Made by a program: the position numbers and the translations under genes
The notes under the pieces: generated by a model
What the model was told of the DNA's origin: nothing
What the model saw: only the letters and a program-made list of their open reading frames with translations
The model's database searches: none
Part shown: positions 1 to 8,093 of the stretch, in pieces
Layout: each line of letters starts with the position of its first letter
Numbering within the stretch: the first letter of the stretch is position 1
Assembly (NCBI GenBank): GCA_015488885.1
Contig: WFMW01000067.1
Location: forward strand, 1-41,611
Length of the DNA: 41,611 bases
From: Gammaproteobacteria bacterium
Lineage (GTDB): Bacteria > Pseudomonadota > Gammaproteobacteria > SZUA-229
Direction: 5' to 3'

Positions 1-150
1 CACTATCTAAATGCAAAAGGCAGACTTCCTGAGCTAAAGGCGTGGCAGTTTCGGCAGATTGCTGATGCACTGCGACTTTTATTCACTGATCTGGTTCAGG
101 CTGAATGGTCAAAATCTTACGACTCCCCCGGCTTAATTACACCGGTATAG
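1..150 (+). pseudogene. Integrase N-terminal SAM-like fragment, truncated
   Basis: The first frame is open from base 1 to a TAG at 148-150. It reads through AWQFRQIADALRLLFTDLVQ and then EWSKSYDS. This resembles the N-terminal core-binding (SAM-like) domain of tyrosine recombinases of the kind found with integrons and transposons, where a Q-x2-DALRLLF helix is followed by W-x3-Y/FDW. The resemblance stops near base 123, and no catalytic domain (R-H-R-Y) follows, so this is a remnant or a gene fused to foreign sequence. The 5' part lies outside the window. It sits inside the interval that would belong to the Tn7-like element ending near 370, so it may be former cargo. The family call is from memory of the motif. 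Confidence 0.5.
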
Positions 151-293
151 TGTTTTATCTGAGATTTATAATCAAAGAAATAAAAATGAATGGCTGTTTA
201 CCGGTGTTAGCTGCCATAGCGATAATTCATCCAAATATCACTATGGCCAATACCCTTTCCAGGAAAACTGTCCATTCCATTAAAATTCGCCAC

Positions 294-374
294 CATTTTA
301 CGACTTTATTATTTACGCCTGTACGAAATTTTACGACTTTATTATAAATTTTACGACTTTATTCGCAGCAAATA
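294..374. mobile_element. Probable Tn7-like transposon end (TnsB-site array) at attTn7
   Basis: Read on the minus strand, going away from glmS, two identical 17-mers AATAAAGTCGTAAAATT occupy 363-347 and 343-327. A degenerate copy lies at about 325-310. A fourth copy at 310-294 differs only in its last two bases. The Tn7 right end, as I remember it, carries clustered TnsB sites of the form AATAAAGTCTTAAACT, which agrees closely. The array starts about 33 bp beyond the glmS stop, and the inferred tip (370-374) is 22-26 bp beyond it, where TnsD-directed insertion falls. No tns gene and no opposite end are in the window, so the element is decayed or extends off the left edge. Confidence 0.65.
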
Positions 375-420
375 CTTATCCAGCAAAATAGCTACCCTAC
401 TCAACTGTCACCGATTTGGC
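375..420 (-). other. attTn7-like target site (glmS 3' end)
   Basis: The last glmS codons encode LAKSVTVE before TAG. This is the conserved C-terminal coding sequence recognised by TnsD in Tn7 target selection. About 22-26 bp separate the stop from the TnsB-like array. The assignment rests on position and on the conserved GlmS tail. No target-site duplication can be checked because only one side is in view. Confidence 0.55.
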
Positions 421-2229
421 CAGATTTCTGGGTTGATCGACATCGGTGCCTTTGCGTACGGCAACAAAATAGGCAAATAACTGCAATGGTATGGCAAACA
501 GTATCGGGGCCAGTTCGGCATTGATGGCCGGTATGTTTAATACCTTGCAGCCAGCGCCAAGTCCGGCTACATCCAGACGTTCATCGGCGAATAGATAAAC
601 ATTGCCTCCACGAGCAAGAATTTCCTGAATATTGGATTTTATTTTACCTTCATAACCATCCATACAGGCAATGGCAATGGTAGGCAGGTCGGGGTCGATT
701 AAGGCAATTGGGCCGTGTTTCAGTTCGCCTGACGGGTAGGCATCGGCATGAATATAGGAAATTTCCTTGAGTTTTAGCGCGCCTTCCAGAGCAATGGGAT
801 AAAGCGCACCTCGACCAATAAAAATAGCATTGTCGATGTCGGTGAACAGGTCTGCCCACTGGTCAATGGCCATTTTATCGAGCAACATCCTGTCCATTAA
901 TGCAGGCAGGCTTAATGCCTGTTTAATCAGCACAGTGATTTTTTTATCTTCCATACCGTGACGTTTACCCAGAGCGATAACCAGGAGTAACAGAGCCATC
1001 AACTGAGTGGTGAAAGCCTTGGTGGAGGCAACACCGATTTCCGGGCCGGCGCGGGTCATTAGTTTCAGCTCACTTTCACGCACCAGTGAACTTTCCGGCA
1101 CATTACAGATAGCCAGCGTTAGCGTGGTCTTTTCCTTTACTGCACGTAAGGCAGCCAGTGTATCGGCGGTTTCTCCCGACTGTGAAATGGTAACCACCAG
1201 AGTGCCATCGGCAAGTACCGGTTTACGATAGCGGTATTCGCTCGCTACTTCAACCCGGCATGGTACACCGGCCAGTGCTTCCAGCCAGTAGCTGGCCACC
1301 AGCCCGGCATGATAACTGGTACCACAGGCTATAATCTGCACCGACTTGACCTGGTCAAAAAGCGTTTGCGCTTCCGGCCCAAAAGCCGACTCTATCAAAC
1401 GACCATCCGCCACCCGTCCCTGCAGCATATCCACCAGAGCAGCAGGTTGTTCATGAATTTCCTTAAGCATATAATGGCGATATTCACCCTTGGCCGTGGC
1501 ATTGGCACTGAGTTCGCTTTCTTTAATCTCGCGTTCTACTTCGGCACCGGTTTTATCAAAAATACGTAAGCAATCATTATGTATATCCGCGACATCACCC
1601 TCTTCCAGATAAATAAAACGTCGGGTTACCGGTAGTAATGCCGCTGCATCCGAAGCGATAAAATATTCGCCAATACCCACACCAATTACCAGCGGGCTAC
1701 CACTGCGTGTGGCGATGAGACGATGCGGATCGTTAACCGCAATAACCCCCAGCGCATAGGCACCTTCAAAATCAGCTACCGCTTTATTCACGGCGGTTAA
1801 TAAATCGCCTTCCTGTTGCAGGTAATCTTCGATTTGATGAACCGCAACCTCGGTATCGGTTTCCGAGGTAAAGACAAACCCTTTCGCTTTTTGTAATGCA
1901 CGCAAAACACTGTGGTTTTCGATAATGCCATTGTGCACAATCGCCACTTTATGATTACAGATATGCGGGTGAGCATTGGTCTCACTGGGTTCACCGTGCG
2001 TTGCCCATCGCGTATGCGCAATACCGGTACTGCCTTTTATGGCATGTTGTTCAAGCGCCTCTGTCAACGCTTTTACCTTACCCACCCGACGTACCCGGTC
2101 AACACAGGCATGACCATCAATGACTGCAATCCCGGCTGAATCATAACCTCGATATTCAAGCCGACGTAAGCCTTCAAGTAATATTGGCGTTACATTACGT
2201 TCTGCTACTGCCCCAACGATACCGCACAT
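397..2229 (-). CDS. glmS: Glutamine--fructose-6-phosphate aminotransferase (isomerizing)
   Basis: This cytosolic enzyme makes glucosamine-6-phosphate from fructose-6-phosphate and glutamine, the entry step to UDP-GlcNAc for peptidoglycan and LPS. The 610-residue length is normal. The start MCGIVGA places the catalytic N-terminal Cys at position 2. The class II glutaminase domain (about 1-230) is followed by two SIS domains (about 290-600) and the conserved tail DVDQPRNLAKSVTVE. An AAGGA ribosome site lies 8 bp before the ATG. It is divergent from deaD across about 230 bp containing a probable promoter and a perfect palindrome. Its 3' end abuts a Tn7-like end. No glmS ribozyme is seen in the leader. 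Confidence 0.97.
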   Translation of the reverse strand: MCGIVGAVAERNVTPILLEGLRRLEYRGYDSAGIAVIDGHACVDRVRRVGKVKALTEALEQHAIKGSTGIAHTRWATHGEPSETNAHPHICNHKVAIVHNGIIENHSVLRALQKAKGFVFTSETDTEVAVHQIEDYLQQEGDLLTAVNKAVADFEGAYALGVIAVNDPHRLIATRSGSPLVIGVGIGEYFIASDAAALLPVTRRFIYLEEGDVADIHNDCLRIFDKTGAEVEREIKESELSANATAKGEYRHYMLKEIHEQPAALVDMLQGRVADGRLIESAFGPEAQTLFDQVKSVQIIACGTSYHAGLVASYWLEALAGVPCRVEVASEYRYRKPVLADGTLVVTISQSGETADTLAALRAVKEKTTLTLAICNVPESSLVRESELKLMTRAGPEIGVASTKAFTTQLMALLLLVIALGKRHGMEDKKITVLIKQALSLPALMDRMLLDKMAIDQWADLFTDIDNAIFIGRGALYPIALEGALKLKEISYIHADAYPSGELKHGPIALIDPDLPTIAIACMDGYEGKIKSNIQEILARGGNVYLFADERLDVAGLGAGCKVLNIPAINAELAPILFAIPLQLFAYFVAVRKGTDVDQPRNLAKSVTVE

Positions 2230-2271
2230 ATAAAAAATCCTTCATTCAGATAATAATCAATATAATCTTAG

Positions 2272-2303
2272 ATAATAGAAGTATTGGCAAACATTTGCCA
2301 ATA
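2272..2303 (-). promoter_or_regulatory. Probable glmS promoter overlapped by a perfect palindrome
   Basis: On the minus strand, TTGGCA (2301-2296) and TATTAT (2277-2272) are separated by 18 bp and lie just over 40 bp upstream of the glmS ATG. The -35 hexamer lies inside an inverted repeat at 2282-2303 with arms TATTGGCAAA and TTTGCCAATA around a 2-bp centre, a perfect 10-bp match. The site looks like an operator for a dimeric regulator. It also lies about 155 bp upstream of the chosen deaD start. Confidence 0.45.
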
Positions 2304-2456
2304 ACACAGAGCAATAATTCCAATAAGCGCTCATAAACTCAAGCAATATTCCTGCCAAACCGGTAGAATAGCCACTATCCCTTCAGTTTTTCACCCGTAT
2401 TGCCAAACAGTCATTTAATCCGCCTTACATCTTTTTCATCTATATCAGGTATTACC

Positions 2457-4343
2457 ATGAGCAGTCAAACCATCACCACATTTAATCAACTGGCATTAGA
2501 TCCATCTTTATTAAAAGCCCTTGATGAAATTGGTTACGAAACTCCCTCCCCTATTCAGGCAGCAACCATTCCCCTGTTACTGCAGGGCGGGGATATTATC
2601 GGCCAGGCACAAACCGGCACTGGTAAAACGGCTGCTTTTGCCTTGCCGGTTTTGTCCCGGCTGGCTATGAAACAGAAAAACCCGCAGGTTCTGGTACTGG
2701 CACCGACCCGCGAGCTGGCCATTCAGGTTGCTGAAGCTTTCCAGAAATACGCCAAACATCTGCGTGGATTTCATGTACTGCCCGTTTATGGTGGTCAGGA
2801 TTATCGTGGTCAGATTCGCGCGCTCGAACGGGGGGTGCATGTGGTGGTTGGTACCCCTGGACGGGTTATGGATCATATGCGCAAAGGTACTTTAAAATTG
2901 CATGAACTTAAAACCCTGATACTCGATGAAGCCGACGAGATGTTACGCATGGGTTTTATTGATGATGTTGAGTGGGTCATGGAACAAACGCCGGAAAACC
3001 GGCAGGTCGCTCTGTTCTCGGCTACCATGCCACAGCAGATCAGGCGTATTGCCACCCGCCACCTGAACCACCCTGAACAGGTAACAATCAAACTCAAAAC
3101 CACCACTGCCGATACCATTCGTCAGCGTTTCTGGCCAGTTAGTGGTTTGCATAAACTGGATGCACTTACGCGTATTCTTGAAGCTGAAGATTTTGATGCG
3201 ATGATTATTTTTGTACGCACCAAAAATTCGACGGTTGACCTGGCCGAAAAACTTGAAGCGCGAGGTTATTCTGCCGCTGCCCTTAATGGTGACATTGCCC
3301 AGAACCAGCGTGAGCGTACCGTCAATAATTTAAAACAGGGAAAAATTGATATTCTGGTTGCCACGGATGTCGCCGCACGCGGTCTTGATGTCAGTCGTAT
3401 CAGTCACGTATTGAATTACGATGTACCTTACGATACTGAATCTTATGTTCACCGTATTGGCCGTACTGGCCGCGCCGGTCGCCAGGGTGATGCGATTTTA
3501 TTTGTAGCTCCACGGGAAAAGCGCATGCTGGCTGCCATAGAAAAAGCCACCCGGCAAAAAATCACCATGATGGAATTACCCTCTACTGAAAAGATTAATG
3601 ACAAACGCGTAGAGAAATTCAAGCAACGCATTAGCGATGCGCTGGAAAATGAAGAACTGGAGTTTTTCACCCAACTGGTTGAACAGTACCAGCAGGAACA
3701 TAATATACCCGCCATAGAAATTGCTGCCGCACTGGCACATTTATTACAGGGCGAAACCCCTCTGCTATTACAGAACAAACCGCAAAGAAATCGCCATCAA
3801 CAGGATGACTGGAACGATACACATAAAACTGATACGCGTCGTTCTACACGTAAAAAAACACCCGTTAAAGACAAAGACCGTTATAACACCTCCCAGGGTG
3901 AAAACCGTGGCAGAGAATCAGCCAGATCATCGACCAACTCTCCAGTTGAAGCCGGGATGGAGCGTTTCCGTCTGGAAGTTGGCCATGAGCATAATGTAAA
4001 ACCGGGCAATATTGTCGGTGCCATTGCCAATGAAGCTGGCATAGAAAGCCAGTATATTGGCCGTATTAATATTTACGATGACCACAGCCTGATCGACTTA
4101 CCCGAAGGAATGCCAAAGGAAATTCTTTATACGTTAAAGAAAGTATGGGTTGCCGGACAGCAGTTAAAAATTACCCACTTAGATAAACATTCAAGCGATA
4201 AACATTCAAGCGGTAAAAACACAAGCGCAGGCAAAACACCGCGACCACAGGCTAAAAACAAAACACAGCGGCAGATTAATAATCAGTCAAAGAATAAAAA
4301 TAATAAAAAATTAAGCCTGAAAAAAAGAGTTAAAAGAAAATAA
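2457..4343 (+). CDS. deaD: DEAD-box RNA helicase with DbpA-type RNA-binding domain (DeaD/CsdA)
   Basis: This is an ATP-dependent RNA helicase of the cold-shock and ribosome-assembly type, acting in the cytosol. Core motifs appear in order: a Q motif around SPIQAATIP, Walker A AQTGTGKT, PTRELA, TPGR, DEAD, SAT, RGLDV and HRIGRTGR. A DbpA-like RNA-binding domain follows at about residues 490-570 (FRLEVGHEHNVKPGNIVGAI), then a very basic tail rich in Lys, Asn and Gln. I chose the ATG at 2457 (628 aa), preceded by AGGT. A TTG at 2400 would add 19 residues unlike the family N-terminus. The tail contains a 15-bp tandem duplication at 4182-4211. Confidence 0.93.
   Translation: MSSQTITTFNQLALDPSLLKALDEIGYETPSPIQAATIPLLLQGGDIIGQAQTGTGKTAAFALPVLSRLAMKQKNPQVLVLAPTRELAIQVAEAFQKYAKHLRGFHVLPVYGGQDYRGQIRALERGVHVVVGTPGRVMDHMRKGTLKLHELKTLILDEADEMLRMGFIDDVEWVMEQTPENRQVALFSATMPQQIRRIATRHLNHPEQVTIKLKTTTADTIRQRFWPVSGLHKLDALTRILEAEDFDAMIIFVRTKNSTVDLAEKLEARGYSAAALNGDIAQNQRERTVNNLKQGKIDILVATDVAARGLDVSRISHVLNYDVPYDTESYVHRIGRTGRAGRQGDAILFVAPREKRMLAAIEKATRQKITMMELPSTEKINDKRVEKFKQRISDALENEELEFFTQLVEQYQQEHNIPAIEIAAALAHLLQGETPLLLQNKPQRNRHQQDDWNDTHKTDTRRSTRKKTPVKDKDRYNTSQGENRGRESARSSTNSPVEAGMERFRLEVGHEHNVKPGNIVGAIANEAGIESQYIGRINIYDDHSLIDLPEGMPKEILYTLKKVWVAGQQLKITHLDKHSSDKHSSGKNTSAGKTPRPQAKNKTQRQINNQSKNKNNKKLSLKKRVKRK
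4182..4211 (+). repeat. 15-bp tandem duplication in the deaD tail
   Basis: GATAAACATTCAAGC occurs twice in direct succession (4182-4196 and 4197-4211), encoding a repeated DKHSS/G unit in the disordered basic tail. The unit keeps the reading frame. It is one of several short tandem duplications in the window. Confidence 0.9.
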
Positions 4344-4357
4344 AAAACCCATCATCT

Positions 4358-4388
4358 TATCGTTCCCACGCTCCGCGTAGGAACGATA
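4358..4388. terminator. REP-like palindrome between convergent deaD and eno
   Basis: Arms TATCGTTCC (4358-4366) and GGAACGATA (4380-4388) pair perfectly. After one mismatch, ACGC and GCGT pair inside around a TCC loop. The core GTTCCCACGCTCCGCGT resembles palindromic units common in gammaproteobacterial intergenic DNA. Placed between two converging genes, it could stop transcription from both sides, although no long T run follows on either strand. Confidence 0.6.
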
Positions 4389-4404
4389 GAGTGACTGGCC
4401 CTGA

Positions 4405-5682
4405 CTATTTCCAGTAATACAATGCCGTATCACCCAGTTCCTGTTCAATCTCCAGCAAACGATTATATTTTGCAATACGTTCACTACGGCTGGCTGATCC
4501 AGACTTCAGGTGGCCACCATCCATGGCAACGGCAAAATCAGCCAGGAAGGTATCAGCCGTTTCACCGGAGCGATGAGAGATAAAATAACGCCAGCCGGCA
4601 TCTCTGCACATCCGTACCGCTTCAATGGTTTCAGAAACTGAACCAATCTGGTTAAGTTTAATCAGCGCCGAGTTTGCTATTCCCTGTTGAATACCTTTTT
4701 GAATATAATGCGTATTGGTCACAAAAATATCATCACCAACCACTTCGATTTTATCACCCAACTGGTCGGTAAACTTCTTAAAGCCGCCCCAGTCGCCTTC
4801 AGCCAGCGGATCTTCCCATAAAATAATGGGGTATTTTGAAACCCAGTCAGCAGCCATTTTAATAATAGCCTCACTGTTCATTTTGCCAGCACCCGACCAG
4901 CTAAGATCATAGGAGCCCTGCATATTAACAGCAAAAGAATTTGCCGCGCTGTCTAATGCAATAGCAATATCTTCACCAGGTTTATAACCGGCAGTTTCAA
5001 TTGCCTGGATAATGGTTTCAATCGCATCTTCATTACTACTTAGATTGGGTGCAAACCCCCCTTCATCTCCCACACTGGTGGCCAGTCCGCGATCTTTCAG
5101 AATTTTCTTTAAGACATGAAAGGTTTCTGCAATATAGCGCAGCCCTTCTCGAAAAGTTGGCGCGCCCAGAGGTACTGCCATAAACTCCTGAATATCGACA
5201 TTATTATCGGCATGTTCCCCGCCATTGAGAATATTCATACAGGGTACGGTCAGGCGCCTTGCACCGGCACCACCCAGATACTGATACAGCGGCACACCTG
5301 CCGATGCTGCAGCGGCTTTTGCTACTGCCATCGAAACGCCCAATATGGCATTGGCACCGAGGTTTGATTTATTGTCTGTACCATCCAGAGCAATCATGGT
5401 CTGGTCAATCAAGGCCTGCTGACTGGCATCCAGCCCCAGCAAATTATCGGCAATTTTTTCATTTACATTGGCAACGGCCTGTAATACCCCTTTACCGGCA
5501 TAACGTGTGCTATCGCCATCACGCAATTCAATCGCTTCATTCTCACCGGTACTGGCACCTGACGGCACCGATGCAACGGCTTTGGTTCCATCATTGAGTT
5601 CTATAAAAACACGCACTGTCGGATTACCACGTGAATCGAGTATTTCCATTGCGCGAATTGAGGATATCGTTGTTTTTTTCAC
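4405..5682 (-). CDS. eno: Enolase (phosphopyruvate hydratase)
   Basis: Enolase interconverts 2-phosphoglycerate and phosphoenolpyruvate in glycolysis and is often part of the RNA degradosome. The 425 residues begin MKKTTISSIRAMEILDSRGN, containing the family's DSRGNPT motif. Further on come GDEGGFAPN, WEDPLAEGD, GDDIFVTN (metal-binding Asp), LIKLNQIGS (catalytic Lys) and SHRSGET, so it should be active. In many Gammaproteobacteria eno follows pyrG; here it is alone and convergent with deaD, with its own 172-bp upstream gap. The SHRSGETAD segment has Ala where SGETED is more usual, which is probably neutral. Confidence 0.97.
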   Translation of the reverse strand: MKKTTISSIRAMEILDSRGNPTVRVFIELNDGTKAVASVPSGASTGENEAIELRDGDSTRYAGKGVLQAVANVNEKIADNLLGLDASQQALIDQTMIALDGTDNKSNLGANAILGVSMAVAKAAAASAGVPLYQYLGGAGARRLTVPCMNILNGGEHADNNVDIQEFMAVPLGAPTFREGLRYIAETFHVLKKILKDRGLATSVGDEGGFAPNLSSNEDAIETIIQAIETAGYKPGEDIAIALDSAANSFAVNMQGSYDLSWSGAGKMNSEAIIKMAADWVSKYPIILWEDPLAEGDWGGFKKFTDQLGDKIEVVGDDIFVTNTHYIQKGIQQGIANSALIKLNQIGSVSETIEAVRMCRDAGWRYFISHRSGETADTFLADFAVAMDGGHLKSGSASRSERIAKYNRLLEIEQELGDTALYYWK

Positions 5683-5809
5683 TGTTTATTTACCTTTGAT
5701 TACTGGTTTTTGATTACTGATTATTACCTGAATGCACGAGTATTTTAGCACATTTTTCTTCCAGCCCTGCTGTATACAGGGTTTTATGCTGATCCATTTC
5801 AGCGGCAAT

Positions 5810-5852
5810 CTGAGCAGTTATAATTACACTTGACACTACACTGAGTAGTTAT
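5810..5852. repeat. GTAACTACTCAG-family repeat pair (degenerate)
   Basis: Two inverted-orientation copies lie upstream of eno and just beyond the prenyltransferase stop: CTGAGCAGTTAT at 5810-5821 (two differences) and CTGAGTAGTTAT at 5841-5852 (one difference) from the consensus CTGAGTAGTTAC. The second overlaps about the last codon region of the next minus-strand gap. Better copies occur near htpG and rplS. Confidence 0.55.
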
Positions 5853-5854
5853 GT

Positions 5855-6760
5855 TCAACCCAGCAATATTGATAGGGGCAATAAAAACAGCGTTAACACC
5901 ACAGCCATAACATTTGCCCCCAGATATTGCGGATAGTGTCCAATTTCTGCTTTATATCTGGTTGAACCCATTAAAGCAAAAACTGAAAAAACCCATGGGA
6001 TAAGCGCAATATAACTTAACGTCGGCAGATAACCCAGATTAATATACAGTACAATGAGTAAATAGGCTGATGCCGAGAACAGGGCGTAAACATAATTACT
6101 TTTTGTTATCCCATAAATGATGGGAAAAGTTTTTCTGCCAACATCAGCATCGGCTTTTATATCGGGATACTGGTTTAATAATAAAAGATTATTCACCAGA
6201 AAAAAGGGAACCAGTGATACCAGTAAAGACAGGTGCGAATAATGGCCGCTTAATAACACATTCGTACCCACAACCATTAATAAACCAAAACCTGTTCCCG
6301 GGGCAATCAGACATATAAACGGATGACGGTTAATCCACGGGGTATAACCAATAATTAACAGACAACCAACGATACCTAATGGCAGAATTAACATACCTCT
6401 TACCAACACAAAGTAGATACCGATGGCAATCATCACAAACAGGCTTATCAGGGCTATTTTAAGGGTTACCCCGGCAACCTGAGGACAGGCAGGTAATGCG
6501 CCACTACCACCACTAAACCCTGTTTTCTGCGTTGTAAAATCCAGTCCACTTTTAAAATCCAGATATTCATTGAAGGTGTTTGCGCTGATAGCGGCACATA
6601 AAGCTGCAACAAGAATTAAAAAAATATATAAATAATTAACCGCAGACATAGGCATTAAAGCCGCACTAAAACCGAGTAAAACACACAGTGGTGTTAATAC
6701 CAGAAAAGGGGGCCTTAAGGTTTGTATAACCGGACTTACTTGCATACACTGAATACTCAT
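5855..6760 (-). CDS. UbiA-family polyprenyltransferase (MenA-like)
   Basis: This is an integral membrane prenyltransferase of the UbiA superfamily, which attaches an isoprenoid chain to an aromatic acceptor. Two Asp-rich metal/diphosphate motifs are visible: NTFNEYLDFKSGLD near residues 65-80 and NQYPDIKADAD near residues 190-200. They sit between about eight or nine hydrophobic segments. The ANxFNEYxDxKSGxD form is closest to MenA (1,4-dihydroxy-2-naphthoate prenyltransferase), but no other menaquinone gene is nearby, so the acceptor is open. The start is uncertain. I use the ATG at 6760 (301 aa); a GTG at 6784 would add 8 residues, and neither has a strong ribosome site. A decayed modC tail lies just upstream. 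Confidence 0.75.
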   Translation of the reverse strand: MSIQCMQVSPVIQTLRPPFLVLTPLCVLLGFSAALMPMSAVNYLYIFLILVAALCAAISANTFNEYLDFKSGLDFTTQKTGFSGGSGALPACPQVAGVTLKIALISLFVMIAIGIYFVLVRGMLILPLGIVGCLLIIGYTPWINRHPFICLIAPGTGFGLLMVVGTNVLLSGHYSHLSLLVSLVPFFLVNNLLLLNQYPDIKADADVGRKTFPIIYGITKSNYVYALFSASAYLLIVLYINLGYLPTLSYIALIPWVFSVFALMGSTRYKAEIGHYPQYLGANVMAVVLTLFLLPLSILLG

Positions 6761-6792
6761 ATTATGGATTTTTGTTAAAGACACAGTCGAAA

Positions 6793-7165
6793 TCAGAATA
6801 ATAAAGCCACACTTTTCACCTTGGAAAATACTTTTTCACCCGGTTTTAAGTTGAACTATATCGCTGATTTTCTGGTCACACGTGCTAATAAAGGTATCTT
6901 TTTAGCCAGCAGCCGCACCATGACCTGTGTATTACCTTCGGCGGCTATTTTATCAACTTTTACCGGAAAATATTCAAAATACTGGTATCTATTTACTGTA
7001 CCAATATCAGAGCTAACACTGTTTCGAACAGGACTTTGCAGGGCGAACGGTATACCCGGCAGTGATAAAATAACCGTTGTTAAACTGGTCAGTTTTAATC
7101 TGGATATTTCATGGAAATGCAATATTTTAGTGAAATCACTGCAGGGAACAGAAATAACAGGAAAT
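6793..7165 (-). pseudogene. modC: Decayed C-terminal (TOBE/Mop) part of molybdate transporter ATPase ModC
   Basis: Read on the minus strand, the frame gives FPVKVDKIAAEGNTQVMVRL and then LLARVTRKSAI. It is interrupted by TAG at 6858-6856, and then continues in the same frame as FNLKPGEKVFSKVKSVALLF to a TGA at 6793-6795. This matches the end of ModC, where NILPVxV, LLARITRRSA, LxPGxxVYAQIKSVAL is the molybdate-binding Mop/TOBE domain. The ATPase domain is missing, no ATG precedes it, and the in-frame stop splits the domain, so it is a remnant. A TTG-initiated 88-residue ORF and an antisense ORF over the same bases are best explained as by-products. Confidence 0.65.
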
Positions 7166-7250: not shown

Positions 7251-8093
7251 TTACCGTATGGCCGACTCATACAGTGTGGCAGGAGTAATTCTGGAAAGAG
7301 GAGTGGGTCTGCATAATAGGAAACCCTGTTGCTGGTCGCAGCCAATGTCATCAAGAAAATGGTACTGTTCCGGGGTTTCAATACCCTGAACAACAGCCAG
7401 TAAACCACTATCCCTGGCCAGATTTACTAATGCACCAATAATAAGCTCACTACGTTTTGAATGACCAATATCACGCGCAAAACATCGATCTATTTTTATG
7501 CTATTTGCTGGTAATTCGCATATATTAGTTAACGATGATTGCCCGGTACCGAAACTATCCAGAGAAAATGTTGCTCCGTGATTTTTTAATATCTCGCAAA
7601 AAGCAGCAACTTTTCGAATATCATGAAAATATTGATCGGCGGTTAATTCAAATTCAAATTCAGACAGTGGTGTATGGCAGCGCTCGCTTATCTCAATTAG
7701 TTTTTGTGCCAGATAAATACTTTCACCTGCCTGCATTGAAAGGTTAATCGCTATTTTTGTATTTGGATTAACATGTGTCTGTACCCATATCAAATCTTTA
7801 CAACATTGTTCAAATACCCATAAATCCAGCAAAAAGATCAAACCGTTCTCTTTCGCGGCTGGAAGAAAGCATTCCGGGTAAAATAAACCGGCATCCGGCC
7901 GCGGCCAGCGCACCAGTGCTTCAAGTATATCAGCCTTACCCGTGGCCACATTATATCGTGGCTGATAATGCAGGCACAGTTTGTTATTACGGATAGCCTG
8001 GTTGAGATGGTCAATAAACCGTTCATCTTGCCGTGGCAACTTCTGTTTGGCAAATGCAAGTATGTTATTGCTCTGGTATGTGTTATTTTTCAT
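7251..8093 (-). CDS. Stand-alone EAL-domain protein, probably catalytically inactive
   Basis: A single EAL domain fills about residues 25-272 of 280, with no N-terminal sensor or membrane segment. Several conserved elements are kept: E58 of EALVRW, N117 of INLS, D179, K200 of SIKID and QQG at 255-257. Three acidic positions used for metal binding and catalysis are changed. TE is T151-A152, the second Asp of DDFGTG is Ser180, and the Glu of EGVET is Gln236 in VVQGIET. By the logic of known EAL enzymes this should abolish c-di-GMP hydrolysis but may leave nucleotide or protein binding. It lies alone, downstream of a 24-bp tandem repeat. Confidence 0.85.
   Translation of the reverse strand: MKNNTYQSNNILAFAKQKLPRQDERFIDHLNQAIRNNKLCLHYQPRYNVATGKADILEALVRWPRPDAGLFYPECFLPAAKENGLIFLLDLWVFEQCCKDLIWVQTHVNPNTKIAINLSMQAGESIYLAQKLIEISERCHTPLSEFEFELTADQYFHDIRKVAAFCEILKNHGATFSLDSFGTGQSSLTNICELPANSIKIDRCFARDIGHSKRSELIIGALVNLARDSGLLAVVQGIETPEQYHFLDDIGCDQQQGFLLCRPTPLSRITPATLYESAIR

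Follow-up and report, generated by a model that had tools for sequence, protein, structure and literature searches.

The 227 bp gap between the divergently transcribed genes glmS and deaD contains a perfect palindrome, TATTGGCAAACATTTGCCAATA, in which two arms of 10 nt that are 100% complementary, TATTGGCAAA and TTTGCCAATA, are separated by the two nucleotides CA, and which lies on the predicted promoter of glmS (Table 1). The palindrome may be an operator specific to this lineage, a single site through which a dimeric helix-turn-helix repressor would control glmS alone, and on this reading our belief and our doubt are evenly balanced. For now, this lone and unconserved sequence should be regarded as at most an ordinary, putative control site, and the value of the result lies chiefly in tempering what had been claimed for it. 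The gap was analysed as part of a stretch of 41,611 nucleotides from a gammaproteobacterial genome, referred to here as the window.

The palindrome and the promoters of glmS and deaD

That a perfect palindrome with 10-nt arms occupies the gap between the two genes is confirmed from the sequence. We take the two genes to be glmS and deaD on the basis of the original prediction and of the look of their translations, which for GlmS includes the N-terminus MCGIVG; relatives of GlmS were also found in the genome collection.

Table 1. Positions in the window of the palindrome, the flanking genes and the predicted promoter elements
Feature	Position	Strand	Basis or remark
Perfect 10-2-10 inverted repeat, possible operator	2282–2303	none	sequence
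glmS, glucosamine-6-phosphate synthase, 610 aa	397–2229	minus	start codon at 2229
Predicted glmS −35 hexamer TTGGCA, in the right arm	2296–2301	minus	promoter scan
Predicted glmS −10 hexamer TATTAT	2272–2277	minus	promoter scan and relatives
deaD-type DEAD-box RNA helicase, 628 aa from ATG 2457	2457–4343	plus	
Predicted deaD −10 hexamer TAGAAT	2364–2369	plus	footprint in relatives

A scan of positions 2150–2520 for sigma-70-type promoters gave two candidates, both of them for glmS, where shuffled sequences gave an average of 1.4. They are TTGGCA-18-TATTAT (2301–2272), which matches the consensus at 10 of 12 positions, and TTGCCA-17-GATTAT (2290–2262), which matches it at 9 of 12, both on the minus strand. 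We prefer the first because four of the nearest relatives have its −10 box, TCTATTAT, upstream of glmS, exactly in two of them (L035 and L037) and nearly identically in the others (TCTATAAT in L047 and TCTATATT in L036). This placement is credible as judged by sequence comparison, and it bears out the original prediction that the palindrome covers the −35 box of glmS. Transcription of glmS would then start near position 2265, which would put the palindrome at about −38 to −17.

Operators of dimeric repressors are inverted repeats of about 16–22 bp with even spacing that overlap promoter elements, and the perfect 10-2-10 repeat has this form, with the −35 hexamer inside it and the −10 hexamer 4 bp away. 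Overlap with the −35 and spacer is a classic place for repression. Bound to the 22-bp palindrome, a homodimeric helix-turn-helix repressor would mask the −35 hexamer together with most of the spacer and repress glmS sterically, by keeping RNA polymerase away. The overlap of a perfect repeat with the −35 and spacer of a promoter matching 10 of 12 consensus positions, and the sharing of its −10 box with the nearest relatives, favor an operator.

The original prediction allowed that a factor bound here might also act on deaD. The upstream regions of deaD in relatives share an ATGCAA-17-TAGAAT-like promoter, which in the window has AAGCAA at 2341–2346 in place of ATGCAA, followed by a 17-nt spacer to TAGAAT. 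The −10 of this family-conserved promoter is about 60 bp from the palindrome, and an effect on deaD is without support because the palindrome lies upstream of and outside the promoter.

The sequence CATGCAA is found at the place of the deaD −35 in 9 of 17 relatives, which is more sharing than a plain −35 needs, and the copy in the window has diverged. The deaD upstream regions of L119, L122–L126, L128, L130 and L131 have AAAnCATGCAA in common at this place and a AAACCGTTAGAATA-like sequence at the −10. The gap also contains TGCCAAAC twice, at 2353–2360 and 2401–2408, the first copy overlapping the spacer of the deaD promoter; its resemblance to a half-site of the palindrome is probably due to chance.

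The same bases could instead be an intrinsic terminator or an RNA hairpin, which on the minus strand would stop antisense transcription before it reached the glmS promoter, or which would lie in a long deaD leader. We consider this improbable. A scan for terminator-like sequences picks up the palindrome on the minus strand (1 hit, compared with 0.2 expected), and on each of the two strands the sequence can form a hairpin with 9 pairs and about −10 kcal/mol. However, just three of the pairs are G-C, and the interrupted tail, CTTCTATTAT, is the conserved −10 box of the promoter itself. Despite passing the loose scan the palindrome does not show the G+C-rich stem and subsequent T run of an intrinsic terminator, and the minus strand upstream of it encodes nothing except the divergent deaD. 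A deaD leader would not include the palindrome either, since the promoter conserved for deaD is downstream of it, and no Rfam family comes near its gathering score within positions 1–6800.

A sigma-54 promoter, for which the consensus of the −24/−12 element is GG-N10-GC, is hardly credible. By eye TTGGCAAACATTTGC resembles such an element, but on both strands the spacing, GG-N9-GC, lacks one base, and the same place is occupied by a promoter of the sigma-70 type whose −10 is conserved. When tested, neither of these two readings fits, and nor does a site for a known amino-sugar regulator, which is considered below.

Relatives and further copies

The original prediction had proposed looking for the palindrome upstream of glmS in relatives and elsewhere in the genome, and had named absence from close relatives as evidence against an operator. 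Neither search came out in its favor. The motif is missing upstream of glmS in all 24 relatives compared, with best GlmS identities of 74–79% and no congener among them, and as far as relatives at this distance can show, the absence speaks against the prediction. The best motif match in these upstream regions has 5–8 mismatches in 16 positions (mean 6.6, compared with 6.4 for shuffles). No palindrome of another sequence takes the same place in the 24 relatives, the best pairing there being 6–8 of 10 pairs (mean 7.0, compared with 7.2 for shuffles). Upstream of deaD the motif is likewise missing in all 17 relatives (5–7 mismatches).

A GlmS match was present in 40 of 40 genomes searched, the own genome included and none of them marked as belonging to the same genus, and 583 stretches of the genome collection encode a GlmS relative, of which the best 80 were kept. 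The 24 relatives comprise 19 of the 24 genomes of the same family, the other five of which had no usable glmS start, together with five loci (L035, L036, L037, L042 and L047). A further six (L038, L039, L040, L041, L049 and L085) were excluded because they seem to repeat genomes included in the count. For glmS loci at a greater distance the scan covered perfect palindromes only, and in two of them (L052 and L096) fewer than 50 bases are available upstream. A DNA similarity search with the gap returned, besides the gap itself, short matches only; the best (E 0.0024) covers 32 bases at query positions 6–37, outside the palindrome, and the others are at 0.04 or weaker.

The arrangement of the two genes is equally restricted. 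Apart from the own locus, 107 glmS loci were examined (108 in all), and deaD is upstream of glmS in none of them, although some have only a short upstream flank; the only one with a deaD-like helicase in reach (L088) has it downstream of glmS. Correspondingly, no glmS gene occurs at any of the 17 deaD loci, many of which have flanks of about 1.5 kb. Because no other examined locus has deaD upstream of glmS, the divergent neighborhood looks recent in this lineage.

Within the genome, the 18-bp core of the palindrome has one exact copy. Allowing up to three mismatches gives 24 places, compared with 25 for a reversed control pattern, and the three places with two mismatches all lie inside open reading frames. 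Neither a second operator site above control level nor a regulon was found in the genome. Further sites are usual for an operator, though not strictly required, as a regulator with a single target would not need them. Across the class, exact matches occur in 3 of 369 genomes, the own included. One of the others (G077) is inside a gene that we take from its translation to be glgB-like, at the same site as the C12 near-match of the own genome, and the other (G136) is at the start of an open reading frame, presumably sulfotransferase-like. On the evidence of these translations the two matches appear to be in, or at the start of, unrelated genes.

The absence of the motif from 24 of 24 relatives, without a substitute palindrome, counts against an operator, as does the lack of a second site in the genome, since regulators often control themselves.

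Frequency of perfect palindromes

The results from the relatives and the single copy speak for a palindrome that arose by chance or mutation and serves no regulator. The glmS promoter would then simply read through it, the right arm merely supplying the −35, in a gap that formed when glmS and deaD became back to back. This explanation is a serious, if tentative, contender that ranks close behind an operator. It agrees with the lack of a divergent glmS/deaD arrangement at other loci, and with the position of the palindrome between a −10 box conserved for glmS and a promoter conserved for deaD. What stands against it is that a perfectly symmetrical sequence falls precisely on the −35 and spacer. 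In a first-order Markov model a 227 bp gap contains a palindrome with arms of at least 10 and a loop of at most 4 in about 0.1–0.15% of runs, and this low chance per gap is a reason for favoring an operator.

The model expects 0.14 such palindromes on average in a sequence of the length of the window (41.6 kb). The genome itself is about 10 times richer in perfect palindromes with arms of at least 10, coding sequence included, than the first-order Markov model, which speaks for the chance explanation. There are 12 of that grade in 317 kb of the own genome, where about 1 is expected, the 317 kb being 16 stretches (L148–L163) that were picked non-randomly for near-matches of the motif, a choice that affects the palindrome count less than the comparison of motif with control. 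Four of the 12 are in coding sequence, which again weighs against an operator, and eight are intergenic, of which four were judged by eye to be terminators (two in L156, one in L158 and one in L161) and another, in L151, resembles a dispersed repeat. Because the real genome exceeds the model in this way, one palindrome of such a grade per 41.6 kb window is ordinary, and what is unusual is only that this one lies on a promoter. Among the 13 palindromes in 358.6 kb of the own genome, that of the window is the sole case in a divergent gap, and this favors an operator.

Several other repeats were observed alongside the palindrome. Elsewhere in the own genome (L153, contig C17, 9524–9558), 63 bp upstream of an open reading frame, two 17-bp arms around a 1-nt center form a perfect palindrome, which is a stronger operator candidate than the glmS palindrome. 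Just downstream of deaD, positions 4361–4387 of the window contain a palindromic element, CGTTCCCACGCTCC..GCGTAGGAACG, and a similar element (CATTCCCACGCTCC..) is present at 7711–7736 of another stretch of the genome (L151), so that the two look like members of a dispersed repeat family. Past the 3′ end of glmS, positions 297–363 hold short direct repeats, with a 20-nt unit, AAATTTTACGACTTTATTAT, in 1.9 perfect copies preceded by an imperfect copy.

Candidate regulators and known systems

The original prediction expected a DNA operator to be bound by a transcription factor sensing amino-sugar or related status. The position on the −35 is compatible with an operator, while the missing conservation and the lack of a matching regulator in the families scanned are not in its favor, and an amino-sugar-sensing factor in particular is unsupported. 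A Pfam scan of 20 of the window's proteins revealed no transcription regulator, which is a further reason for disfavoring an operator.

We then consider the own genome, for which the stated completeness is 100. The LacI-type helix-turn-helix domain scores at best 17.8 bits against a cut-off of 27, at a 95-aa open reading frame that is presumably XRE/HigA-like. For DeoRC the best score is 17.6 bits (cut-off 31.8), at a 220-aa open reading frame that we take to be RpiA-like, and for UTRA it is 21.3 bits (cut-off 23.8), at a 193-aa open reading frame that is presumably like the chorismate lyase UbiC. As a control, the same profiles give matches in E. coli and others. The genome encodes two ROK proteins, of 299 and 338 aa, both of which begin at the kinase core, so that a DNA-binding domain of the NagC type is absent from both and there is no room for one N-terminally.

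It is thus very improbable that the palindrome is a site for a known amino-sugar regulator (NagC, the GntR/HutC-type NagR or the DeoR-type GlmR) or for a LacI-type protein such as PurR. The PurR box, ACGCAAACGTTTGCGT, does have a GCAAA-TTTGC core in common with the palindrome, but LacI, DeoRC and UTRA all fall below cut-off in a genome where the ROK proteins have no DNA-binding domain, and the LacI, DeoR, UTRA and NagC-type families are nearly refuted as the source of the regulator. Among the papers listed on glmS and its regulators, none deals with a DNA operator of this sequence.

More specifically, an undescribed, dedicated repressor with one perfect operator on glmS could have arisen after glmS moved beside deaD, in a genome lacking the NagC, GlmR, NagR and LacI types tested; we think this unlikely. 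If the operator is real, transcription would be switched at the first committed step in making amino sugars and cell wall precursors, in a gammaproteobacterium that lacks those known amino-sugar repressors that were tested.

The arrangement can be compared with several known systems. Operators of dimeric helix-turn-helix repressors in general may overlap the −35, and the 10-2-10 palindrome over the −35 and spacer is like them; it differs in having no regulator found, no second site and no motif in any of the 24 relatives, among which there is no congener. According to the published account (PMC2806358), NagC controls glmUS in E. coli through two 23-bp boxes near the promoters P1 and P2, and is an activator of P1. 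The two cases share a DNA site near the promoter of a glmS operon, but here there is one 22-bp palindrome and no ROK protein with a DNA-binding domain was found. The glmS ribozyme-riboswitch of Gram-positives controls the same gene, and no match to it was obtained within positions 1–6800 at E up to 5; GlmY and GlmZ likewise have no match within 1–6800. The enteric GlmY/GlmZ–RapZ system acts on RNA and not on DNA, but a RapZ-like protein is encoded in the own genome, and the known post-transcriptional route to glmS may therefore operate here.
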